DNA of 49,253 nucleotides, taken from Treponema sp. Lineage in GTDB: Bacteria; Spirochaetota; Spirochaetia; Treponematales; Breznakiellaceae. Made by a program: the position numbers and the translations under genes. The notes under the pieces were generated by a model. That model saw nothing but the letters and a program-made list of their open reading frames with translations. It was not told the origin of the DNA and did no database searches. This document shows, in pieces, positions 35,580 to 47,741 of this stretch (positions are counted from its first letter, which is position 1; each line of letters begins with the position of its first letter). The stretch is from the NCBI GenBank assembly GCA_031282065.1, contig JAITEL010000074.1, positions 1 through 49,253 of the forward strand. Reading direction: 5' to 3'.

Positions 35580-36644
35580 CTATTCTTCAACCTCACTGCT
35601 ACTGCTAGCACCCTCAGTGGGAGTAAAGGTAGTCTGAGGAGCTTGCCGCTGCCTATCCAGATAGCGCTTAATTTCCTGCTGTCCAAGCCGCTGCAATTCT
35701 CCAGTCTTCCGTGCAGTCTCCCTATCCTGGATAATATTCCAGAGTGCTTCATCCTCAATATCCCGTTCAGTATCAAGTACCGCTTGATCGTAGATGATCT
35801 TAACATCTTTGAAATAACCGATAAAATCTCCACCAGGACTGGAGGCATTCCGCTGAATGAGGAATCCACCAAACTTCACAAAAGGCGTTGAATCAGGATA
35901 GATGGGGTATAAACGCAATTCCCGGTTCCGCACATTCTGCACATAGGCAGGATTATCCCACCGCAGTTCTCCCCAGCCTTCAAAGTTAAGATAACCCATA
36001 AAATAGGTTTTCTCATTCCCTTTGTCATCAATAAGGATCACCGAAAGAGCATGGGGGAAATTAAGGCCATAGGCATTTACCGCTATGGACTTAATGGTTC
36101 CTACGTTCTTAATCACCCCTAAACCACCGGTAGGTTTGCCTTCTTCATTAACTTCACCTTCAAAACGACTGGGACCTGTAACGCCTGAAGCATCGCTTGG
36201 CTGGATAGTTCCCTCATCATCGATCTCTGCAGGAGGTTCAAACGCGGGAATATCAAAGGGCGGCTTCACCACAGCCCAAGAATTAAAGGCCTCCACCGGG
36301 AAGTGGATACGAACACCCATCACCTTTTCCCATTCTTTAGAAGGGGCTTCTTTAGTATAGCTGAGATGCTTGGTAGTAATATTCTGCGAAGAAGATGAGA
36401 ATACCACATCCCAATTGGCTATCGCTAAAGAAGATTTCATCTCTGCCCTTTGCCGGGCAGTGAAGTTGCTCGTGGCCTCATTGGTAAAATCCATTAAGGT
36501 CGCACGGTTTTGAGTGGGCTCGTCATTTTGATTGGGGATAATGTCTGCGGTTAATTTTGAGAAGTCGATAAGCACCGACTCTTCAGCAAACACCGATCCC
36601 ATTGCTAACAACGTGACGACGACAAGAATGAAGATACGTTTCAT
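35580..36644 (-). CDS. flaA: Flagellar filament outer layer (sheath) protein FlaA
   Basis: FlaA coats the FlaB core of spirochaete periplasmic flagella. The 354-residue product has a signal peptide MKRIFILVVVTLLAMGSVFA cleaved before EES, then a mature domain with GVRIHFPVEAFNSWAVVKPP and SIAVNAYGLNFPHALSVILI, both characteristic of FlaA family members. The C-terminus is rich in Gln, Arg, Ser and Glu. AAAGGAG precedes the ATG and a strong promoter lies upstream. Spirochaetes often carry several flaA paralogues; which one this is cannot be decided. Confidence 0.92.
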   Translation of the reverse strand: MKRIFILVVVTLLAMGSVFAEESVLIDFSKLTADIIPNQNDEPTQNRATLMDFTNEATSNFTARQRAEMKSSLAIANWDVVFSSSSQNITTKHLSYTKEAPSKEWEKVMGVRIHFPVEAFNSWAVVKPPFDIPAFEPPAEIDDEGTIQPSDASGVTGPSRFEGEVNEEGKPTGGLGVIKNVGTIKSIAVNAYGLNFPHALSVILIDDKGNEKTYFMGYLNFEGWGELRWDNPAYVQNVRNRELRLYPIYPDSTPFVKFGGFLIQRNASSPGGDFIGYFKDVKIIYDQAVLDTERDIEDEALWNIIQDRETARKTGELQRLGQQEIKRYLDRQRQAPQTTFTPTEGASSSSEVEE

Positions 36645-36767: not shown

Positions 36768-37277
36768 TTATCCCCCTACCGCCTCGGTTTGCATGATCCG
36801 TACCTCATGGCCGTAGATAAAAAACTTGACCTCCTGGACCGAAGGAAAATTCCGCCTGATTCCCTGTTGGAGCGTATCCAAGCTTAAAAAGACATCCGGC
36901 TTCGGAGCCTCCAAAAGGGGCAAGGCAGCGCTTTCTGAAAGATCGAGGTATACCACCTGGTCCCGGTATAATAATGAGCGAAGCCGGGTTTCTCTTGGAA
37001 ACAAGGGTAAAGCATCCGGTGCCACTGGTCCAAGGAGGGTCTCTTCCACATAGCGTCTGAGGGCAAGCTCTTCGGTGGGCGCGGGGGAAAGCATACGGTC
37101 TTCTACTAGGGGTTTCCCATCTCTCAAGGTATAAAACATAAAGGTCCGTCTCACCTGGTTTATGTGCCGGAATTGGATGAACGTGAAGAGCCCCAGTAGG
37201 AACAGGTACACCAAACGCCGAACATATGGTTTTACCCTAAACCCGCCCTTTTTTTTACTGTTTCTCGTACCCTTCAT
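36768..37277 (-). CDS. GerMN-domain protein
   Basis: About 169 residues: a basic N-terminus, one membrane helix (LVYLFLLGLFTFIQF) and a GerMN-like domain with LRRYVEETLLGP, LRSLLYRDQVVYLDLSES and IRRNFPSVQEVKFFIYGHEV. GerMN domains occur in envelope and sporulation proteins and often sit near cell-wall amidases; here an amidase gene lies 48 bases upstream. The open frame begins at 37301, but the ATG at 37277 (MKGTRNSKKKGG) has GGTGGG at proper spacing and is preferred. Confidence 0.82.
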   Translation of the reverse strand: MKGTRNSKKKGGFRVKPYVRRLVYLFLLGLFTFIQFRHINQVRRTFMFYTLRDGKPLVEDRMLSPAPTEELALRRYVEETLLGPVAPDALPLFPRETRLRSLLYRDQVVYLDLSESAALPLLEAPKPDVFLSLDTLQQGIRRNFPSVQEVKFFIYGHEVRIMQTEAVGG

Positions 37278-37325
37278 ATAATACCCACCATGTCCGTTCA
37301 TTTTTTATAAGGCAGCCCTTCATCT

Positions 37326-38396
37326 TTACAAGCCTTCAAATTCACTCACAAAATCCATAATACCCTGATATAAGGCTTCTGAAAAGCGCTTCAAGTAGAT
37401 CTCATCGGTCAAAAGCGTCGCATCTATTTCATTACTCAGAAAGCCTAATTCGACCAAAACCGAAGGCATCCGAACATTCCGTACCACAAACCATTCCTCT
37501 GCCTTGATACCGCGGGAAGGAAAAGAACTGCCCAAGGCTTCATCAAAGCGTTTCATAATAGCTTCGGCCATCCTGATGCTTTCAGAGGTGAATTCTTCCT
37601 CAAGCATGGCATTAAGAATGGGAATAACCTCTTGCGTATCCTTGTATTTCGAGTGGTCAATGACGGTCCGTCGGTACTCTGGATTCAGGTACCATACCTC
37701 ATAGCCCCTTACATGTTTATTGAAGGATGCATTGGCATGGATGGAAATGAATACCGTGGCCTCGTTGTCTTGCAATGGAATCCCATTAGCTATAGCTACC
37801 CTATCATCCAGGCTGATAAAGACGTCCTGGTCTCGCGTCAACAAGACCTGTTTATCGGGAAAACCGCGGGAAAGCCGGCTATGAAGGTCCTGGGAAACTT
37901 TGAGGGCAATGTCCTTTTCCTCCACCCGCAAGGGCTTTCCATCAATACGATGATTCCCCACTGCTCCCGTATCTTTACCCCCATGACCAGGATCCACAAT
38001 AATCGCGGCAATACGAAACTGGACCGGCGCTTCCTGAGGCGGAGTATCTTCCAGATCCTTGCTGAGGGCGCTCACAAAGGCTTGGGGAAACTGCAACACC
38101 CCTTGCTCCAGAAAGGGGGACGGCAGGGAGAGTATTTCCTTGCCGTTAAGGAGAACCAGACCGGTTTCACCGGGCATCCCAACCCTGAAGGATAGGTACT
38201 GATCGGCCCGTGAAAAGACCCCGGCCTGAAAAAAGGGATCCCAGCGGAATGCGGCGGCACTTCCCGGTGAACCGAGGACTTCGAGGGTTTCATCCAAGGT
38301 GAGGGCCTTCTCATCCCCAAAACCCACGAGTGGTATGGATATAAAGAGCATACTGGAAAACAAAAGCCCCAGTAAGAAACGCCGGTTATGTATCAA
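37326..38396 (-). CDS. N-acetylmuramoyl-L-alanine amidase (Amidase_3)
   Basis: A 356-residue cell-wall hydrolase that cuts between muramic acid and the peptide stem. A signal peptide (FLLGLLFSSMLFISIPLVGFG) precedes an N-terminal accessory domain (about 30-125) and an Amidase_3 domain with IIVDPGHGGKDTGAVG (zinc His), VLLTRDQDVFISLDDRV, VFISIHANAS (zinc His) and VLVELGFLSNEID (catalytic Glu). The start is TTG; an internal ATG would remove the basic n-region. The 38397-38563 gap upstream shows nothing clear. Confidence 0.93.
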   Translation of the reverse strand: MIHNRRFLLGLLFSSMLFISIPLVGFGDEKALTLDETLEVLGSPGSAAAFRWDPFFQAGVFSRADQYLSFRVGMPGETGLVLLNGKEILSLPSPFLEQGVLQFPQAFVSALSKDLEDTPPQEAPVQFRIAAIIVDPGHGGKDTGAVGNHRIDGKPLRVEEKDIALKVSQDLHSRLSRGFPDKQVLLTRDQDVFISLDDRVAIANGIPLQDNEATVFISIHANASFNKHVRGYEVWYLNPEYRRTVIDHSKYKDTQEVIPILNAMLEEEFTSESIRMAEAIMKRFDEALGSSFPSRGIKAEEWFVVRNVRMPSVLVELGFLSNEIDATLLTDEIYLKRFSEALYQGIMDFVSEFEGL

Positions 38397-38563: not shown

Positions 38564-40168
38564 TCAGGAATGGAAGGGTACCAGAGTATCTACCAGGTAT
38601 ACCGCGCCCTGGTAGCCTCCCCGGATCAAAGCGGTCCAGAAACCGCGACCGAGAACCAGCGTTCCTGGTTCCCTCAGGGTATCCTCGGCATAGGCACCCA
38701 CTTCCCGCAAGGGAAGGGGAAGCCCGGTGAGGGACCGGACCGCTTCAAGACTTTCCGGTACGGTCCTCCCGGTATAATCCTGGAGGTCTGATTCGATCAA
38801 GGGCTGAAAGCACAGGAGGACCACCTGGGAAGCCCTCATAGCGGTCTGCGCATAGGCTGGTTCCGGGAAAGATGCAAGAAGGGACCTCATGGCTGCTGGA
38901 ATGATAAAGGCCGCAGGGGGAAAGAGGGTATCCTCTCTCCCAGAAGCGAGAAATTGTTCGGTTTCCGTATCCGGTGACTCAAGACGGATCAGGATCAACC
39001 GGGCGGCCTGTTCTGCGGCGTGTACGGCTTCTTCCCGTGTAGGAGCCGCGCTGATGCTATTCCCGCACTTGCTTACGTTGTTTTCAGGAAACCGGACCCG
39101 GCTTCCTGGGGCAATCCGCAGGAACAGGTCTTTCACATAGGTAAGGGAGGCAGCCGCTTCCCTGCCTTGTATGGCCCGGACCTTTCCCGGTATGGAGATG
39201 AAGGCCCGTTCCGCACTGGTCCACTGCCGGACCGGGCTAAGCCCTTGAGGGGGACGCCCCAAGGCGATAAGGATGGCTCCCCGGGTAAGCTCCACCCCTG
39301 AGGAGTAGGGGTAGGTCCAGCCCGACATATAGCCCCCGGAAAGCCGGGCCGCAATTTCCCCTATCATAGGCCCCTGGGGGGTGAGTTTTATATCTCCTTT
39401 GGCAGCGCCCTGGGTGATACCCAAGGCCTTAATCCCTGCTTTAAAGACCGCAAGCAGGGGTTCAACTGCGGCAGGGTTCAGCGCGGTGGGCATGGTATGG
39501 CCCATTTCAATGAAATACGGGGGGAAGCAGATGTGCCGGTCCGCTAAACCGCAGATGGTGATCTCCCCTTGGTATACCAAAGCGTCTACTGAAAATTCCG
39601 GCCCTTCCATGTATGCTTCCAGGATAACCCGGCTCGTTCGGGAGAATCTCAGGGCATCGGCCACTGCGGAACCGAGCAGTTCGGGGCGGTCAACCCTGCG
39701 GCAGCCTCGAGCGCCCATATTGTCTACCGGCTTGACCACCAGGGGGTAGCCAAAGGGAGGGGAAAACCCGGAATCAGGGACCGCTTCCACCACCGTATAT
39801 GCAGGAGAAGGCAGGCCTGCCGTTTGAAAGCACCCTCGCATCCGTTCCTTGTCCGAGGCATTGAGGGCAGCCTCATAGGGAATCCCCGGAAGCCCTAATT
39901 GGGCCGCAACCCAGGCAACCGTGGCGGAAAAATCCGTTCCCGCGGTCATGATCCCGGCCAATCCTCCCCGGGCTTTAATCGCCGCTCCCAAGGCGGCAAT
40001 GGCCTCCTTGTCTTTTAAATCGATCCGTTCAAAGCGATCCGCTAAGGAGACGCAGGGAGCCTTTGCATCCGCATCCACCACCACGGTTTCGAGGCCCAAG
40101 GCCTTGGCAATGCGGATGGCAGGCCCCTGCATCACCCCTGCCCCCAGGATCATCAATCGTTCTTGCAT
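38564..40168 (-). CDS. ATP-grasp ligase in a glycan-synthesis cluster
   Basis: A 534-residue ATP-grasp protein. The N-terminal MILGAGVMQGPAIRIAKALG is a nucleotide-like pre-ATP-grasp fold; the core shows PLVVKPVDNMGARGCRRV (lysine-containing ATP loop), ILEAYMEGPEFSVDALVYQG and MIGEIAARLSGGYMSG (metal ligands). Such enzymes join a carboxylate to an amine or thiol. A C-terminal region of about 130 residues is not recognised. It overlaps the preceding fusion gene by 16 bases, with AGGTGG before the ATG, so it likely adds an acyl or amino-acid group in the same pathway. Confidence 0.8.
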   Translation of the reverse strand: MQERLMILGAGVMQGPAIRIAKALGLETVVVDADAKAPCVSLADRFERIDLKDKEAIAALGAAIKARGGLAGIMTAGTDFSATVAWVAAQLGLPGIPYEAALNASDKERMRGCFQTAGLPSPAYTVVEAVPDSGFSPPFGYPLVVKPVDNMGARGCRRVDRPELLGSAVADALRFSRTSRVILEAYMEGPEFSVDALVYQGEITICGLADRHICFPPYFIEMGHTMPTALNPAAVEPLLAVFKAGIKALGITQGAAKGDIKLTPQGPMIGEIAARLSGGYMSGWTYPYSSGVELTRGAILIALGRPPQGLSPVRQWTSAERAFISIPGKVRAIQGREAAASLTYVKDLFLRIAPGSRVRFPENNVSKCGNSISAAPTREEAVHAAEQAARLILIRLESPDTETEQFLASGREDTLFPPAAFIIPAAMRSLLASFPEPAYAQTAMRASQVVLLCFQPLIESDLQDYTGRTVPESLEAVRSLTGLPLPLREVGAYAEDTLREPGTLVLGRGFWTALIRGGYQGAVYLVDTLVPFHS

Positions 40169-42342
40169 ATCCCACCTGCTGATTTCCTAACCGCCGGTTC
40201 CCTGCCCGCGGGTTCTTTGACTGCATACACCTCAAAGGTGTCTCCCAGATGAAATATACGGCTTATCCACAGGACTAAGCCGTATGCCAGGCCGCTTTTT
40301 CTCCCTGCTCCTGTCCCTAAAAACCGTCCCACCCCGGGAAAACGCTCAGGATGATGCCCGGAAATGACGAGTGTTTTGAGCCTAAACCCAAAGCTGCGCA
40401 GGATCCTGCCGGTTCGACCAGGGCTCCACACCGTCCAATGATCCGGCGGGCTTCGTTCCAGGAAGCCTGAGAAGGACCTGCGGCCTGATATACCGGAACC
40501 AGAAGGGCTTGAAAAGGCCAAGACCCCGCCGGGTTTGAGGAGCCGGTACAGTTCCGCGAGCACCGCCGCGGGCTGTTCAAAATGTTCCACCACATACCAC
40601 AGGGAAATGAGATCAAACCCTTCAGAACCGAACCCTTCAGGCACAGGGGTTTCCGGGAAAAACCCCCGGCATGCAGGGATATGCAGTTCCTCCTGCACAT
40701 ACCGCACCGCATCTTCTGCCGGGTCCATGCCGAAAGGCAGAAACCCCTCTTCCCGGGCGGCAAGCAAGAAGGGCCCATAGGCACAGCCTATATCCAGGAG
40801 CCGTGCCGGGCTTTGGGAAGGATCTTCCCCCCGGGCTCTTCTGGCGCTCCAGACCAGGGGTTTAGCATAGCGAAGGCGTTTTTTCCCGTACTGTACCAGA
40901 TGGGGAAGATCTTCCAGGTAGGTTTTTCCATATTGCTGCTTGTAAAAGGAAAAAAAATACTCCTTTTCATATTCGATAGGCGGTAAGGAGGTACGCAGGA
41001 GGTACACCATACCGCAACGCCGGCAGCGCCGGTAGGTCCTGTCCGGGAACCGGCCACAGACCGGATCCTCCGCAGGGCCTGTCCCTCCGCAGACCGGACA
41101 GGATCGGGGGACCCGAAGGGTGTAGCTCGCCAACAGCGCCGACAGCCCGTGAACGGGCGAGCTAAGCCCTTTACCGGAAAGAGCCTGTGCTCCATTCGGG
41201 GGCCCGTTTCCTTCATTTGGGTACCCGGATACTCCATTCGGGTACCCGGATGTTGTATTTTGGTACCCGGATACTCTATTCGGAAGCCCGGATGCTCCAT
41301 TTGGGTACCCGGATACTCTATTCGGAAGCCCGAATACCGCATTCGCAGGCCCGGATGCTCTATTTGGGTACCCGGATGTCTGTTCCGGTTTCAGTCCATA
41401 CCGCTCCCGGATCTCCTCGCACCGATCCCCCAAGGCTCTCAGGGCTTTCTCATTGAGGAGCAGGGAGGTCCGGTTTTGCGGATCCGGGGTAAAGAGGAGG
41501 CTGCGTAAACGCCGCGCTCCCTTTTCCCCTATGCCCCCGGAAATGAACCCTGCCTGGACCGCGAGTTTTTCGTGGTACGCGCCGGGGGATAGGAGCAGCA
41601 CCGGTACCCGGGCCGCAAGACTTTCAAAGGCGGTGAGGCCAAAATGGGTAAGCACCAGATCATACGAGGCCAGATGCTCCCGCAGTTCCGCCATGCCCTC
41701 CCGCACCCGGATCCCTGCGGCCTCAAGGCTTGCCCGGCGGGCTTCCTTAGCGTCAGTCTGGTTGAGCCTGCCGAACAGCGCGGTAAGCGCTGTTTGTCCG
41801 GGTACCTGCAGGGCAAGGCAGACCGGAAGGGTAAGGTCTCCCGGATCTTCCGCGCCGAAACTCACCAGAACCTTCAGGGCCTGCTTTCGCGGCAGTACAA
41901 AGGAGGGCCGCCGGTGCTCCGGCAGCGGAAGGAGGCTTGGGGAAAGGATATTAGGAGGCAGACGGCCCGCAGGACCGGGAAGCAGATCAATGAGAAAATC
42001 AAAGCGCTTCCGCCTGGGTCCTCCCTCATCAATACCGATAAGGGGAGCTAAGGCCGTGTATTGGGCGAATATTTCAGGATCCGTGCTGAAGCGATCCAGG
42101 ATAATGCAGGCCCAGGTCCGCATGAGTTCCCGCTCCTCTATGAGCCAGGAGCCTTCAAGCCTTTCTTCCTGGGCCATACGCAGCAAACGAGGGACATCCT
42201 GGGATGCCAGAGCGGGAATATGGAGATAGGCTTCCTGCTTGAGGGAACGAAGAGAGCGAATCAGCACGAGGGAACGGACTAAGTGCCCTCCCCCGCGGCC
42301 TTTTTCAAAGGTGGAAACCACCAGGAGGGGGCCATGCATCAT
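40153..42342 (-). CDS. PseG-like glycosyl hydrolase fused to a SAM methyltransferase
   Basis: A 729-residue two-module protein. Residues 1-320 resemble PseG/GT-B proteins: STFEKGRGGGHLVRSLVLIR (glycine-rich loop with His20), GIDEGGPRRKRFDFLIDLLP, LKVLVSFGAEDPGDLT and DLVLTHFGLTAFESLA. Residues about 322-385 are heptapeptide repeats. Residues 415-443 form a zinc ribbon (CPVCGG ... CRRCGM), and the C-terminal part is a class I methyltransferase with LLDIGCAYG (515-523) and VVEHFEQPAAVLAELYRLL. PseG releases UDP in pseudaminic acid synthesis, so a nonulosonate-type sugar is suggested. Neither activity is proven. It overlaps both neighbours. Confidence 0.75.
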   Translation of the reverse strand: MMHGPLLVVSTFEKGRGGGHLVRSLVLIRSLRSLKQEAYLHIPALASQDVPRLLRMAQEERLEGSWLIEERELMRTWACIILDRFSTDPEIFAQYTALAPLIGIDEGGPRRKRFDFLIDLLPGPAGRLPPNILSPSLLPLPEHRRPSFVLPRKQALKVLVSFGAEDPGDLTLPVCLALQVPGQTALTALFGRLNQTDAKEARRASLEAAGIRVREGMAELREHLASYDLVLTHFGLTAFESLAARVPVLLLSPGAYHEKLAVQAGFISGGIGEKGARRLRSLLFTPDPQNRTSLLLNEKALRALGDRCEEIRERYGLKPEQTSGYPNRASGPANAVFGLPNRVSGYPNGASGLPNRVSGYQNTTSGYPNGVSGYPNEGNGPPNGAQALSGKGLSSPVHGLSALLASYTLRVPRSCPVCGGTGPAEDPVCGRFPDRTYRRCRRCGMVYLLRTSLPPIEYEKEYFFSFYKQQYGKTYLEDLPHLVQYGKKRLRYAKPLVWSARRARGEDPSQSPARLLDIGCAYGPFLLAAREEGFLPFGMDPAEDAVRYVQEELHIPACRGFFPETPVPEGFGSEGFDLISLWYVVEHFEQPAAVLAELYRLLKPGGVLAFSSPSGSGISGRRSFSGFLERSPPDHWTVWSPGRTGRILRSFGFRLKTLVISGHHPERFPGVGRFLGTGAGRKSGLAYGLVLWISRIFHLGDTFEVYAVKEPAGREPAVRKSAGGICKND
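41188..41379 (-). repeat. In-frame 21-bp repeats encoding a heptapeptide linker (about nine units)
   Basis: Nine successive 21-bp units encode variants of SGYPNGA, such as GYPNRAS, GLPNRVS, GYPNGAS and GYQNTTS, between the PseG-like and methyltransferase modules. Plus-strand units read roughly gggtacccggatactctatt. Units differ by several bases, so the array is not a fresh duplication. The Gly/Pro/Asn-rich sequence predicts a flexible, exposed linker. Confidence 0.93.
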
Positions 42343-43040
42343 GGCAGTTCACCTGTTAAGGGCTTGAAGAGCCTGCGGTAGGCGGCGATGATAGGCTCTC
42401 CCTGGGACACAGGCCCTCCCGTATCGGCGAGCGCCTGGAACAAGGCCGCTGCTCGCCGGTAATCTGCGGGGCTGTCTATGCTTATCCGCACCGCGGGATC
42501 CTGCCAGACCAAGGGGGCCAAGGGCCGGTGGAGCAGGAACAACTCAGGATGGGTATACAAATAGGGACATACGTGTTCCCGTTCAGCCGGGAGGGAAGCC
42601 TCCGCTTCGGCGCGAAGCAGGGCTTGTGCAGCCACCGATTCCACCCCTGCGCCATAGGGCAGACCGCTATAACCGGCATAATCAGCCTTACGAGCAAGGG
42701 CCTCTTGGTTGATGGTATTCGCAGCATCTACAAACACAAAGGGATTGTCCCCGGTGGCTCGGATAAGGCGGTCTATGCCGAAACCGCGCACTGCAAGGCT
42801 ATACCGGCTTAACACATCTTCCTTTGATCCTGCCAGCAGGTCAAAGCCGGCCTGTGCTGCTAAGGGGCCAAAGGCTCCCGCACAGTCATGGGGGCAGGCA
42901 AGCACATACCTATCCGCCCATATCCCCTTGAGGGCCTCCATGACCCGCAGGATCAGGGGCTTTCCTCCCAGAGGCAGGAGGGATTTTCCCGGAAGGCGGG
43001 TCGAATCAAGCCGCGCCTGTACTACCACTGCGGTGGTCAT
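42339..43040 (-). CDS. spsF: SpsF/NeuA-type cytidylyltransferase
   Basis: A 233-residue nucleotidyltransferase. AVVVQARLDSTRLPGKSLLPLGGKP (4-28, beginning with the strand and the R-x3-R-x-P-x-K nucleotide loop) and IRATGDNPFVFVD (about 90-102, the metal-binding Asp) match the SpsF/CMP-sugar synthetase family, which activates acidic sugars with CTP. It lacks any fused domain. Four-base overlaps with genes on both sides indicate translational coupling in the glycan cluster. Confidence 0.88.
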   Translation of the reverse strand: MTTAVVVQARLDSTRLPGKSLLPLGGKPLILRVMEALKGIWADRYVLACPHDCAGAFGPLAAQAGFDLLAGSKEDVLSRYSLAVRGFGIDRLIRATGDNPFVFVDAANTINQEALARKADYAGYSGLPYGAGVESVAAQALLRAEAEASLPAEREHVCPYLYTHPELFLLHRPLAPLVWQDPAVRISIDSPADYRRAAALFQALADTGGPVSQGEPIIAAYRRLFKPLTGELP

Positions 43041-44161
43041 TTCAAGGACCCTGACCCTTCAATGCGTTCCGGTTCACCTTTTGGCGCTTCAAACCTGAGC
43101 GCTTCCATTCCCGGACCTTCTGGTTTTCCTTCTTCGAGCCGGGGATGATCCTCTGCTAAGAGCTCACCCATATCTTCCCACAGCTCGGTGATGGCCCGAG
43201 CATCGCTACGGAACCGGTAACGGTTGGTCTTTACCCATTGGCGGCCCTGGGAAAAATCATCCCATGCGGCGAAGAGGGTCTTGCCGCTACGCCAGAAATA
43301 CCGGGGAAAACACCGGAGCGGAATCAAGGCAGAATCCCCTCGGAAAACCGGCGCCAGATTCTTGAGATAAAAACGCCGGTAGCTTTCATCCGCCGTACTA
43401 TCCTCAGGCGGGGTTTCTCCATCATAGGAAAGGCGGATCATCTGGGTGGCGCCTATCTGCTCTCCCCACAGATACGATCGGAAGCCGAAATCCATCAGTT
43501 GCCAATGGCTACTTTTTAAGGTACTGTCAAAGCCCCCCATCCGGATAAACCGGATCCGGTCATAGATACCCACTCCATCAAAGGGGTACAGGGAGAGCTG
43601 CCCTTCTTTCGCAGGGGCAAAGAAGAGGGGTTTGACCGTGGCACGAAACACCGCCGGTGCAATGAGGGTGGGCAGGGTTTCAAAATGGGAATTCTGAATC
43701 AAGGGAACCGTACAAAGCCGTTTATACAGGCTTTTTTGCCCCTCTCCCTTGTACCGTTCTTCCTTGCCCAGCCGAAGCCGCTCCTCCATCCGGGAAGCCC
43801 CGCCGCTATGGAGGATCCTCAGATCATTGCGCAACACAAAAAAGAGGGGGCTGGAGAGTTCCGATGCCGCGAGGTTTATCTGTTCGCCCAGGCTTACCGC
43901 TTCCTTCAAGAGAATAAAACGAACCTGGGGGAAAAGCCCTGAGAGTTCTTCCACATCGTACCGTTCCTGGGGGCCTTCCATGGAGAGGATATAATCAAAG
44001 CCAATCTTTTCCAGTTCATGAAAACGGATACGCCGGGGATAGCGGCCTCCGCCTCTGCCCAGAAGGACTGCGGAAAGCCCGGTAGAAGCTCCCCGTTCAG
44101 TACCTCCTACGGCAGTATAGGAAGGCAGGGTATCGTTAAAAGTTGTAGGTATAGTATTCAT
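43037..44161 (-). CDS. Glycosyltransferase-like protein (GT-A type, tentative)
   Basis: A 374-residue protein. The part FFVLRNDLRILHSGGA and DGVGIYDRIRFIRMGGFDSTLKSSHWQLMDFGFRSYLWG resemble the acceptor side of GT2-like transferases (the pattern G-G-F-D ... D-F-G-x-R). The nucleotide-binding DxD is not clear, so the assignment is tentative. The open frame extends to 44260 but overlaps the preceding gene; the ATG at 44161, overlapping the spiro-SPASM stop by 26 bases, gives the sensible start MNTIPTTFNDTLPSYT. Probably acts on the sugar made by its neighbours. Confidence 0.55.
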   Translation of the reverse strand: MNTIPTTFNDTLPSYTAVGGTERGASTGLSAVLLGRGGGRYPRRIRFHELEKIGFDYILSMEGPQERYDVEELSGLFPQVRFILLKEAVSLGEQINLAASELSSPLFFVLRNDLRILHSGGASRMEERLRLGKEERYKGEGQKSLYKRLCTVPLIQNSHFETLPTLIAPAVFRATVKPLFFAPAKEGQLSLYPFDGVGIYDRIRFIRMGGFDSTLKSSHWQLMDFGFRSYLWGEQIGATQMIRLSYDGETPPEDSTADESYRRFYLKNLAPVFRGDSALIPLRCFPRYFWRSGKTLFAAWDDFSQGRQWVKTNRYRFRSDARAITELWEDMGELLAEDHPRLEEGKPEGPGMEALRFEAPKGEPERIEGSGSLK

Positions 44162-45689
44162 CACACCCCGCGCATATTCCCGTATAAGCCGCTCTACACT
44201 GTTCGCTGTAAAGCGCCCCAGACCGGGACCAGATGGTTTCCAGGGAATCAGAAAAAACATTGCCCCCTATCCCTTTTTCCGCTTCCCCAGTCAAAGCCCC
44301 GAGATCTTCCCGACAGCAGGGAACGGTTCCATCACGCAGGATCACCATATCCCGCATGAGGTGCCAACAGGGCTGACGTTTTACCGGCGAGAGATCCGAT
44401 GCCCCCAATGCAGGGAGCACCCCGCAAAAATGATCGTATTTCTGGATAATGATACGGGCCCCCGCTTCTTTCCAGTACCGATAAAAGTGTTCAATATCAT
44501 CTTCACAGCCTTTGACCCTGACTGCTTGCACATAGGCGTCCTGGGGAAACAAGCGGCTTACGGCTTTGGCAGTTGCCTGGGCTTCGGCATAGCCTGGGCC
44601 CCGAATTTCCCGGTACCGTGCCGGATTCTGGGTATCCAGTGCAAGTATCCAGGAGAGAGGCGCCATACCATTACACCGGGGCGGGGCGTTCTGGGCTTCG
44701 GTTGCCGCCTGTTCCAGTTCATCCGGTTTCCAGCCAAGGCCGGAACTTTCGATGATAAGAGAGAGCTCAGGATGGGAGAGGACATGGCGAAGGATCTCCA
44801 TCTTTTCAGGGTGGAGGCTGAGTTCCCCCCAAAGGGAAAGATCGATCACCCCGTCCCCGGCAAAGGCGATGATGCGCGTTACCAGCTCCTCAAACCGATC
44901 TCCCCCTAGGAAGTCGCTTCTTTGGGTCAGATCTCCTGAACCATGGAATCGAGAATATGGGCAGAGGGTACAGGACTGAGGACAGGGGCCTGCTACCTGA
45001 ATACTAAAGAAATGAGGAAGGGTTCGCAGGAGTTCAGGTTTTTCAGCAATGAGGGTTTGTACATCCTGGGCCCGGGAAAAACCTGCTTGCGCAAACCGGG
45101 TCAAGAGCATGAGGTTTCGCTTGGAATTTGCGCTCAAGCTCAGGCGGTGGCAGCGGAGATCCACCGGGGAAAGGATCGTTTCAATATCAAAGGCATTGAT
45201 ATCTTTTTGGATAACCGAAAACAGAATATCCCGTTCCACCGGGCCATCAGCATCGCCGAGTATTTTTGAGAGCAGCCCTCCCATACCTGGCCCCAGAATT
45301 TCCGGGGAAAGGCCGTAGGGCCAGCCATCGGCATAGGAATATTCCGCGGCATACTGAAGATGCCGTTCAGCAATAGCCTTGGCAAGCTCTGGATCCAAGA
45401 AAGGGCAATCAGCCCAGGCAAAATAGGTGAGATCAAACCCTGCGGATTCCTTGGCCAGGGTATCAAGGACGTGTTTTTTGGTCCATTCCGCAGCCTGAAT
45501 CAGCTCAACTGCCTGAATACCCTCAACATGCCGGATCGGCCTTGTTTGGGTCAATAAAAGAATCTTACGGGTACCGGGAAATGCAGCCGCCCGTTCCACT
45601 GCCAGGGCAAGGGCACTTTTTCCTGAAAAGACCTGCTCATACGCCGCTTCGGTAAGGCTGCCCCCATATAATACTGCCAGGGCATTCAT
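44136..45689 (-). CDS. Spiro-SPASM-type radical SAM protein with N-terminal nucleotidyltransferase-like domain
   Basis: A 517-residue protein. Residues 1-220 resemble SpsF/CMP-sugar nucleotidyltransferase folds (MNALAVLYGG start, FAWADCPFLDPELA in the metal-binding region). Residues about 225-400 hold a radical SAM core with the full CX3CX2C motif (C236, C240, C243 in CPQSCTLC). The C-terminal end is a SPASM domain with PCWHL, VILRDGTVPCCRED, GNVF and CRAAYTGICAGC. Proteins of this architecture are known from spirochaetes as spiro-SPASM, of unknown reaction. It heads the five-gene overlapping cluster, so a peptide or sugar modification tied to glycan synthesis is inferred. Confidence 0.85.
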   Translation of the reverse strand: MNALAVLYGGSLTEAAYEQVFSGKSALALAVERAAAFPGTRKILLLTQTRPIRHVEGIQAVELIQAAEWTKKHVLDTLAKESAGFDLTYFAWADCPFLDPELAKAIAERHLQYAAEYSYADGWPYGLSPEILGPGMGGLLSKILGDADGPVERDILFSVIQKDINAFDIETILSPVDLRCHRLSLSANSKRNLMLLTRFAQAGFSRAQDVQTLIAEKPELLRTLPHFFSIQVAGPCPQSCTLCPYSRFHGSGDLTQRSDFLGGDRFEELVTRIIAFAGDGVIDLSLWGELSLHPEKMEILRHVLSHPELSLIIESSGLGWKPDELEQAATEAQNAPPRCNGMAPLSWILALDTQNPARYREIRGPGYAEAQATAKAVSRLFPQDAYVQAVRVKGCEDDIEHFYRYWKEAGARIIIQKYDHFCGVLPALGASDLSPVKRQPCWHLMRDMVILRDGTVPCCREDLGALTGEAEKGIGGNVFSDSLETIWSRSGALYSEQCRAAYTGICAGCDEYYTYNF

Positions 45690-45849: not shown

Positions 45850-46572
45850 TCAGGGAGCCAGTCTAAACCGGCCAAAGGATGCGGCAAGATGTACATCGGG
45901 TGTTTCGCTTACGGAAGCTAGGTTATCAATCCATGATATCCACCGAGGCTCTTCTCCATCGGTGCTCCAATCGGTACGAAAAACCCCTACCAGAAGCAGG
46001 GTCTCGTTGTCCTCACTGAGCAGGCCCGCTTCCCGGAAGGATTCTAAGGGGATTGCTCCCTCTACTGAATAGCGGCCGTCAAAAATTCTCCCCGCTACTT
46101 GTTGGTCGGTGAATGTCCAGTCATTATTCTGATCCCGTAGGTAATAGGCCAGCGAATAATCATGAACATGCCCCAAAGCATCCACAGAGACCACATAATA
46201 AGGAGGAAGTGCACCCTCGACCGGCCGGTCTATCTGATGGGAAGCAAAGAACAGATGCACCGCATCTAAACGATCAACGCCTTCTTCATCGTCCACTGCT
46301 TCTGCAGACACAATATCCTCATCTTCAAGGACAAAGGAGAAGTAAAAGGTATCTGCATCGTGATAAGCCTTAAATACGGTGGAAGGAGCCACATCTTCTT
46401 CCCAAGGGAGAACAAAACTACCGATAGCCGGCACTCGATCCCACACCCGTTCATCCGCAACACCGTCAAGTATGAACACCGCTTCATCACGATTAACCAC
46501 ATCATAGGTTCCCGCAAAAAGCGTTCCGACCGCACCGATTAGCACCATAGCTAATACCCATTTTTTGCACAT
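45850..46572 (-). CDS. Exported carbohydrate-binding-like protein (CBM9 family)
   Basis: About 240 residues: signal peptide MCKKWVLAMVLIGAVGTLFAG, then a CBM9-like beta-sandwich with FILDGVADERVWDRVPAIGSF, FKAYHDADTFYFSFVLEDED and GRYSVEGAIPLESF. This fold binds sugars in xylanases and also occurs alone in envelope proteins. The open frame reaches 46593, but the ATG at 46572 has GGAGG nine bases upstream and starts at the signal peptide. Asp/Glu-rich loops might bind calcium. Ligand unknown. Confidence 0.8.
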   Translation of the reverse strand: MCKKWVLAMVLIGAVGTLFAGTYDVVNRDEAVFILDGVADERVWDRVPAIGSFVLPWEEDVAPSTVFKAYHDADTFYFSFVLEDEDIVSAEAVDDEEGVDRLDAVHLFFASHQIDRPVEGALPPYYVVSVDALGHVHDYSLAYYLRDQNNDWTFTDQQVAGRIFDGRYSVEGAIPLESFREAGLLSEDNETLLLVGVFRTDWSTDGEEPRWISWIDNLASVSETPDVHLAASFGRFRLAP

Positions 46573-46608
46573 GTAATCGATCCTCCGATACATAAAGATA
46601 CTGGCAGT

Positions 46609-46794: not shown

Positions 46795-47658
46795 TTACTG
46801 CTGCAACAACTGGAGAACACCCTGGCTTCGCTGATTAGCCTGAGCCAACATAGCCGTACCAGCCTGGCTAATAATCTGATTCTTGGTAAAGGAAACCATT
46901 TCGGTTGCCATATTGGCATCCCGGATACGGGATTCAGAAGCTTGCAGGTTTTCCGCTCCTATATCAATGCCGCGGATTGCCTGTTCTAAGCGGTTCTGGT
47001 AGGCTCCCAGATCTGCCCGCTGTTTACTGACCCTCTTGAGGGCTTCATCAAGCGTCCCCAAAGCCCGATTGGAACTATCCGGATCGGCAAGGGTAAGCAA
47101 GCTATCGTCTCCCACATTCCGAATCCCCAAGGACTTGGCGGTCATGGTATTGATAAACACCTGTTCCCGCTGATCCATGTTCGCCCCGATATGAAGCCAC
47201 AGCGAAGCGGTAACCACATTTTCGCCCCCTTGCCGGGCAAAACGACCGGTGAGCAGGTTCATCCCATTGAATTGGGCATGGGAAGCAACTCGATCCAATT
47301 CATCAATAAGAGCTGATACTTCGATCTGAATATACGTCCTATCTTCTTCCGTATAAATCCCGTTGGAAGACTGTACTGCCAATTCACGGATCCGCTGTAA
47401 AATATCCTGCGTTTCCTGGAGGTAACCCTCGGTGGTCTGAATAAACGAAATCCCGTTCTGCGCATTGGCAGATGCCATACTCAGGCCTCGAATTTGACTC
47501 CGCAGCTTTTCAGATACTGCAAGGCCCGAAGGATCATCCCCCGATCGGTTAATCCGCAAACCGCTGGACAATTTCTCAATGTTCTTTTCAAGAGTCGTCT
47601 GGGTGGATTTAAGGGACCTATCAGCAAACATAGCACTTATGTTGTGATTAATGATCAT
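46795..47658 (-). CDS. flaB: Flagellin FlaB (core of the periplasmic flagellum)
   Basis: A 287-residue flagellin, the usual length of spirochaete FlaB. The N-terminal [17 protein letters not shown] and [24 protein letters not shown] form the D0/D1 coiled coil; [20 protein letters not shown] and the C-terminus [13 protein letters not shown] complete it. There is only a short D2-like centre. The frame is open 15 codons further, but AAAGGAG seven bases before the ATG at 47658 fixes the start. Related spirochaete FlaBs are O-glycosylated, and the Ser/Thr-containing centre could carry such a modification. Confidence 0.95.
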
Positions 47659-47741
47659 ACTGTCACTCCTTTGGCTTTTTCGGCGCAGCGTAAGCTCATA
47701 CACCTTTCAACGCCGCGGCATCCATGCCGTCTGTATTATGG
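47659..47741 (-). promoter_or_regulatory. flaB leader with candidate CsrA sites
   Basis: CATAAT (47741-47736) is a possible -10 box. The predicted leader begins with a perfect hairpin, CGGCAT and ATGCCG around GG (47716-47729), which shows AUGGAUG, a close match to the CsrA core A(N)GGAUG, at its tip. The ribosome-binding site AAAGGAG (47672-47666) also contains GGA. A loop site plus a Shine-Dalgarno site is the layout known from CsrA control of Bacillus hag. No sigma28 box was found. Confidence 0.5.

Follow-up and report, generated by a model that had tools for sequence, protein, structure and literature searches.

In Treponema denticola, the core flagellin FlaB carries a novel glycan of 450.2 Da that is essential for filament assembly (PMC9481697) and is attached at VEVSQL and DRIAS motifs (PMC7431986). 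Leptospira FlaB1 has glycan densities at its contact with the sheath (PMC13144727). Maf enzymes act on flagellin (PMC11339370, PMC13317340), and methyltransferases are found in some pseudaminate flagellin systems (PMC13317340). The literature searched gives no gene set for the unusual part of the T. denticola glycan. A candidate set is supplied by a block of five genes on a 49,253-nucleotide stretch of Treponema sp. DNA (assembly GCA_031282065.1, contig JAITEL010000074.1; this whole stretch is referred to as the window). The block encodes a spiro-SPASM protein, a glycosyltransferase-like protein (GT), an SpsF-type cytidylyltransferase (CT), a fusion of a PseG/SpsG-like domain with a methyltransferase (PseG-MT), and an ATP-grasp ligase (Table 1). 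These genes probably represent the downstream half of a spirochaete-type nonulosonic acid (NulO) pathway that O-glycosylates FlaB in the cytoplasm before export. An earlier note on the window had proposed that the cluster makes and activates an unusual sugar, methylated or amidated, for FlaB or another surface target. The phyletic profile, synteny, domain fusion, and T. denticola glycan chemistry support the core of that proposal, a nonulosonate of this kind on the flagellin. Its statement that T. denticola FlaB has an unusual O-glycan agrees with the 450.2 Da glycan reported (PMC9481697).

One set of 197 spirochaete genomes was searched for spiro-SPASM, Maf, flagellin, the ATP-grasp ligase, and the NulO synthase NeuB. 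Spiro-SPASM was strong in 166 genomes and Maf (PF01973) was strong in the same 166, with one marginal hit on each side (G178 and G188). NeuB was strong in 164 of the 166; 163 of the 166 also had the ATP-grasp ligase, which was absent from the remaining 31 genomes. Flagellin was present in 188 genomes, namely all 166 with spiro-SPASM and 22 genomes of 0.9-1.8 Mb from one family, in which spiro-SPASM, Maf, and the ATP-grasp ligase were all missing. We take this family to be probably Borreliaceae; the labels Borreliaceae, Leptospira, and Brachyspira are assigned here from general knowledge. The remaining nine genomes were flagellin negative, and none of them had spiro-SPASM above the cut-off (the best Maf match there was marginal, 7e-13). 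For spiro-SPASM and the ATP-grasp ligase, the co-occurrence with flagellin that the earlier note suggested looking for was thus found, and the cluster is not kept in spirochaetes that lack flagellin. A reduced genome is not enough to account for the loss in these 22 genomes, because the 1.14-Mb genome G041 retains the core genes, NeuB, the ATP-grasp ligase, and four Maf matches. G041 (1,139,633 bp) is presumably T. pallidum, just as G139 (2,843,201 bp) is presumably T. denticola. In several genomes of 2-3.4 Mb from family f22 there were four to seven matches to the spiro-SPASM model, possibly paralogues or other SPASM proteins. FlaB modification via the pathway of this cluster is therefore expected in almost every flagellated spirochaete except those of the one Borreliaceae-like family.

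The order spiro-SPASM, GT, CT, PseG-MT, ATP-grasp ligase, AmiC, GerM, FlaA was identical in 80 of 80 related loci, and this conservation of gene order is far beyond chance. Among the 49 loci with a full 10 kb downstream, AmiC and FlaA were reached in 43 and the ATP-grasp ligase was present in 40. In each of 52 related loci the overlap between spiro-SPASM and GT measured exactly 26 nt, and PseG and the methyltransferase were one protein in all 62 loci. Profile searches of distant genomes recovered the full nine-gene block in families f1, f2, f3, f5, f8, f10, f11, and f14 of the class. Family f17 of the same phylum keeps spiro-SPASM, CT, PseG-MT, AmiC, GerM, and FlaA, with no GT or ATP-grasp ligase at that spot. 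In three family f2 genomes, including G139 and G041, CT, PseG, and the methyltransferase form a single protein of 844-881 amino acids. A CT-PseG fusion suspected in Breznakiella was not borne out by stop-to-stop tracing of open reading frames (ORFs). The culturable Breznakiella homolactica has the block (L045).

The linkage to flaA spans families, but flaB and the gene for a CBM9-like protein adjoin the cluster in only 10 of the 80 loci, all close relatives. Therefore, the flaA link is old and the flaB link local, and adjacency to flaB was dropped as main evidence. The earlier note had placed flaA and flaB on either side of the five genes. Both do flank the block, although neither directly: amiC and gerM separate it from flaA, and the CBM9-like gene separates it from flaB. 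As a general feature the flaB adjacency does not hold, being recent and confined to 10 close relatives.

It is conceivable that the cluster makes an envelope glycan, such as lipopolysaccharide (LPS), lipooligosaccharide, or capsule, and lies near flaA by chance. Enzymes of the SpsF, PseG, and NeuB families are also used to make the NulOs of O-antigens and spore coats, and Leptospira is reported to be a NulO producer (PMC3438082). However, the conserved block contains no flippase, polymerase, or O-antigen ligase, and its neighbours across eight families are amiC, gerM, and flaA. A link to LPS or capsule genes, which the earlier note had named as evidence against its proposal, was not found; che genes are additional neighbours in one genome. 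T. pallidum has no LPS, and G041, which we take to be that species, keeps the core, NeuB, the ATP-grasp ligase, and four Maf matches. The system is also absent wherever flagellin is absent. An envelope glycan is therefore very unlikely to be the product.

Other steps of the putative NulO pathway are encoded elsewhere in the host genome (2.65 Mb in 179 contigs). A NeuB with a SAF domain (L121, 4018-5766) is divergent from fliS and a gene of flgN size, and its contig also carries a second flaB. The location beside fliS connects NulO synthesis directly with flagellin export. NeuB scored 216 bits with PF03102, which places it at the superfamily level, and 205 bits with the PseI equivalog model, below the cut-off of 340. 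Its best match in the PDB was B. subtilis SpsE (1vli, 2.5e-43, full length), followed by a pseudaminic acid synthase. NeuB orthologues were found in all 13 genomes probed; the orthologue in G139 is 48% identical and lies at 982.5 kb. In G150, NeuB stands directly behind flaA-cheA-cheW-cheX-cheY of the cluster locus, the che names being our own reading of the sequences. The PseI of T. denticola (TDE0960) is critical for FlaA, FlaB, and filaments according to a review (PMC9862357). Four Maf (PF01973) proteins above the cut-off are encoded in the host genome. On contig C176 (L157, 194-3492), the gene for a NusG-like (LoaP-like) protein precedes those for a CapD/PseB-like dehydratase and a PseC-like aminotransferase. 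This adjacent pair may be a source of the amino sugar or part of an unrelated glycan operon. It was not accepted as true PseB and PseC, in view of its scores of 157 and 314 bits, which are below the cut-offs, the CapD/FlaA1 type of the dehydratase, and the NusG-like neighbour. Thus, the earlier note was correct that the early Pse genes are absent from the block; the genome-wide search that it had suggested located the synthase beside fliS and, for PseB and PseC, only weak candidates.

The chemistry of the T. denticola glycan offers a rationale for the enzyme set. The structure attributed to Kurniyati 2017 is reportedly a pseudaminate-type NulO with a 2-methoxy-4,5,6-trihydroxyhexanoyl group at N7. 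The wording of the side chain was not found elsewhere in the literature searched. A pseudaminate with that substituent computes to 450.185, a check on mass only. Such a side chain would require amide formation, O-methylation, uridine diphosphate (UDP) removal, and cytidine monophosphate (CMP) activation, for which the ATP-grasp ligase, methyltransferase, PseG, and CT domains, which draw on four of the five genes, would be suited. A hydroxy-acid amide side chain would also account for the use of an ATP-grasp ligase where the pseudaminate pathway has the acetyltransferase PseH.

The CT matched CTP_transf_3 above the cut-off (79.7 bits), and its closest solved chain was 6oew (8e-16). The PseG-like domain in the window matched TIGR03590 weakly (27-31 bits; cut-off 153.55), 27 of 32 relatives matched the model (best 2.7e-16), and G-x-G-H20 and TH-x-G...E240 were invariant. 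The methyltransferase domain is a zinc-ribbon S-adenosylmethionine (SAM) methyltransferase (Methyltransf_23). The linker of GYPN type between the two domains is encoded by a 21-nt repeat (41190-41378), which had one other genomic match, at 35% (L003); contigs C44 and C45 hold other repeat-coded stretches. The ATP-grasp ligase matched LAL_C2 (2.3e-17) and ATP-grasp_4 (8.6e-13), and among solved chains it came closest to 3vot, an L-amino acid ligase (5.6e-22). Two genomes outside the class have it fused to a flavin mononucleotide (FMN)-dependent 2-hydroxyacid dehydrogenase (L178, 6413-8659; L179, 6170-8341), which fits a 2-hydroxy acid substrate. Long ORFs suggest the same fusion in many other genomes. 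The family assignments of the earlier note were recovered (TIGR04321, CTP_transf_3, ATP-grasp_4 with LAL_C2, and Methyltransf_23), the similarity to PseG being weak. The five genes that it had called glycan-activation genes are all present, but strictly only two of them encode activation enzymes.

From the observed gene content, gene order, co-occurrence, fusions, and predicted folds we infer the substrates, the order of steps, and FlaB as acceptor in the host; the reactions of the single enzymes are likewise predictions, most of all the one assigned to spiro-SPASM. A dehydratase and aminotransferase pair encoded elsewhere would yield a UDP-4-amino sugar. The ATP-grasp ligase, replacing PseH, would join a hydroxy-acid to the sugar amine as an amide, and the methyltransferase would O-methylate the hydroxy-acid side chain. 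The PseG-like domain would then remove UDP, the NeuB/PseI-type synthase beside fliS would condense the hexose with phosphoenolpyruvate, and the CT would convert the product to CMP-NulO. Maf, encoded elsewhere, would attach the NulO to conserved serine or threonine residues of FlaB D1. Spiro-SPASM may bind a nucleotide-activated sugar and carry out a radical modification jointly with its translationally coupled GT-A partner.

The FlaB in the window has two serine motifs at places corresponding to VEVSQL and DRIAS. Among 19 flagellins read, the first serine was present in 17 of 17 non-Borrelia-like proteins and the second in 16 of 17; the two Borrelia-like flagellins have glutamate and aspartate. 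A conserved serine near DR(I/V) is common in flagellins generally, so the conservation was considered supporting evidence only. One alternative is that another flagellar part is modified, either the sheath protein FlaA or peptidoglycan at the motor anchor, as the amiC and gerM neighbours might suggest. The old linkage is indeed to amiC, gerM, and flaA rather than flaB, and a review calls FlaA glycosylated (PMC9862357). However, the title of Wyss 1998 states that in T. pallidum and oral spirochaetes flagellins are glycosylated and sheath proteins are not. Furthermore, Maf acts on flagellin (PMC11339370, PMC13317340) and glycan sites have been mapped on FlaB (PMC7431986, PMC13144727). A flagellar target other than FlaB thus seems very unlikely, on a par with an envelope glycan.

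Several observations weigh against a NulO pathway for FlaB as proposed here. The matches to PseG, PseI, PseC, and PseB are all below equivalog cut-offs. Thus, the system cannot be assigned firmly to the Pse pathway itself, and the claim is that it works like that pathway. In five loci (L029, L030, L031, L040, and L075) CT is followed directly by amiC, and PseG-MT and the ATP-grasp ligase are gone from the spot, which shows that this position does not always hold the full set. In the G139 and G041 genomes the ATP-grasp ligase lies apart from the core genes. The losses trace to about three lineages, so that genome counts overstate independence; at the family level spiro-SPASM and Maf agreed, with 42 families having them and 3 without (Fisher 7e-5), the losses being few and clustered. 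The loci that lack PseG-MT and the ATP-grasp ligase may make a simpler glycan.

The spiro-SPASM protein is a full-length member of TIGR04321 (560 bits; cut-off 250), a model whose name gives no function; the present results connect the family with genes for flagellin NulO and so give it a probable pathway. The radical SAM and SPASM cysteines C236, C240, C243, C441, C459, C506, and C509 were invariant in 41 sequences. In Foldseek comparisons with an AlphaFold2 model (pLDDT 86.9), the N-terminal part resembled a Leptospira cytidylyltransferase (6oew, TMt 0.73), as well as IspD and TarI, and the remainder matched SuiB, BtrN, anSME, and DesII, along with SkfB and EpeE. The N terminus lacks the RxxSxRLPxK loop of the neighbouring CT and D94-x-P96 is invariant. 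These two features suggest that the N-terminal domain has a role in binding a sugar nucleotide.

Spiro-SPASM could instead be a peptide-modifying radical SAM enzyme, as in protein maturation or the maturation of ribosomally synthesized and post-translationally modified peptides (RiPPs), with the cluster altering the flagellin backbone besides or instead of a sugar. The best C-terminal matches include the peptide-acting SuiB, anSME, SkfB, and EpeE. However, the sugar-acting BtrN and DesII were also matched, the N-terminal fold is that of sugar nucleotidyltransferases (6oew, IspD, and TarI), and the remaining cluster genes represent sugar chemistry. Backbone modification is therefore considered unlikely. 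A further, speculative possibility, which we regard as less probable than the opposite, is that spiro-SPASM is a new type of radical SAM enzyme in which a repurposed cytidylyltransferase domain holds a CMP- or UDP-nonulosonate, or a precursor, for radical editing. Together with an ATP-grasp ligase replacing PseH, this would define a separate, phylum-wide nonulosonate branch for the periplasmic flagellum, with a glycan that glues sheath to core.

For the GT, none of 38 members had a Pfam match, and searches of PDB sequences with the GT and the PseG-like domain returned no useful relative. The GT model (pLDDT 66, pTM 0.69) has a GT-A fold and its best Foldseek matches were polypeptide GalNAc-transferases (1.9e-9). 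Those matches raised the GT as a candidate for the flagellin transferase itself. It was set aside in favour of Maf because GT was not found beside spiro-SPASM in the six loci read outside the class and Maf is present in all 166 genomes.

Table 1. Positions in the window of the cluster genes, the repeat, and neighbouring flagellar genes.
Feature	Coordinates	Strand	Remarks
Spiro-SPASM, 517 aa	44136..45689	-	N-terminal cytidylyltransferase-like fold, radical SAM (C236-x3-C240-x2-C243), SPASM
GT-A-fold glycosyltransferase-like protein	43037..44161	-	374 aa from MNTIP; ORF open to 44260
SpsF-type cytidylyltransferase (CT), 233 aa	42339..43040	-	Candidate CMP-nonulosonate synthetase; CTP_transf_3 3.6e-22
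PseG/SpsG-like domain (41397-42342) and SAM methyltransferase domain (40153-41142), repeat linker between	40153..42342	-	
21-nt tandem repeats, 9 copies, encoding interdomain linker	41190..41378	-	Tandem Repeats Finder
ATP-grasp ligase with LAL_C2, 534 aa	38564..40168	-	Candidate acid-amine ligase
N-acetylmuramoyl-L-alanine amidase (AmiC-like)	37326..38396	-	Amidase_3 8.9e-46; conserved neighbour
GerM-like protein (Germane domain)	36768..37301	-	PF10646 1.2e-6; conserved neighbour
FlaA, periplasmic flagellar sheath protein	35580..36644	-	PF04620 3.9e-70, 236 bits
FlaB core flagellin, probable acceptor	46795..47658	-	Terminator-like site 46750-46725

The five genes (38564-45689, minus strand) overlap by 26 nt (spiro-SPASM/GT), 4 nt (GT/CT), 4 nt (CT/PseG-MT), and 16 nt (PseG-MT/ATP-grasp ligase), as the earlier note had described with its range of 4 to 26 bases, and the block continues into amiC, gerM, and flaA. 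A promoter scan gave a sigma-70-like match for flaA at 36721-36694. The longest GT ORF runs from 44260, and the conserved MNTIP at 44161 is the likely start. The flagellin ORF (46795-47703) was over-called at GTG 47703; a clear ribosome-binding site accompanies the ATG at 47658, where FlaB starts. The secreted CBM9-like protein encoded at 45850-46593, between flaB and the five genes, was confined to the 10 closest relatives. Scanning the window for Rfam families and tRNAs returned no matches. The closest relatives of the host are mostly Treponema-labelled metagenome assemblies.

The cluster thus supplies gene candidates for the unusual part of the essential T. denticola glycan. On Leptospira FlaB1, glycans apparently hold sheath to core. 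The nearest described system is pseudaminate flagellin glycosylation (PseB-C-H-G-I-F plus Maf) in Campylobacter, Helicobacter, Aeromonas, and Clostridium, with which the spirochaete system has Maf in common and, as predicted features, a PseG-like hydrolase, a NeuB/PseI-type synthase, a cytidylyltransferase, and a flagellin target. In contrast to that pathway, the cluster adds an ATP-grasp ligase, a radical SAM/SPASM protein, and a GT-A protein; PseG is fused to a methyltransferase; the genes are spread over several loci and linked to amiC, gerM, and flaA; equivalog cut-offs are not reached; and no PseH was identified, no search for PseH having been made. The T. denticola system of the FlaB glycan and PseI (TDE0960) belongs to the same order, G139 has the orthologous synthase and the core block, and the enzyme set fits the glycan. 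G139 differs from the window in that CT, PseG, and the methyltransferase are one protein and the ATP-grasp ligase is elsewhere. The B. subtilis spore-coat legionaminate system (SpsE/SpsF/SpsG) is also similar. NeuB is closest to SpsE, and the CT and PseG-like domain are of SpsF and SpsG type, adjacent in the same order as spsF and spsG in sps. We know of no radical SAM or ATP-grasp partner for the B. subtilis Sps system, which serves the spore coat rather than flagellin.

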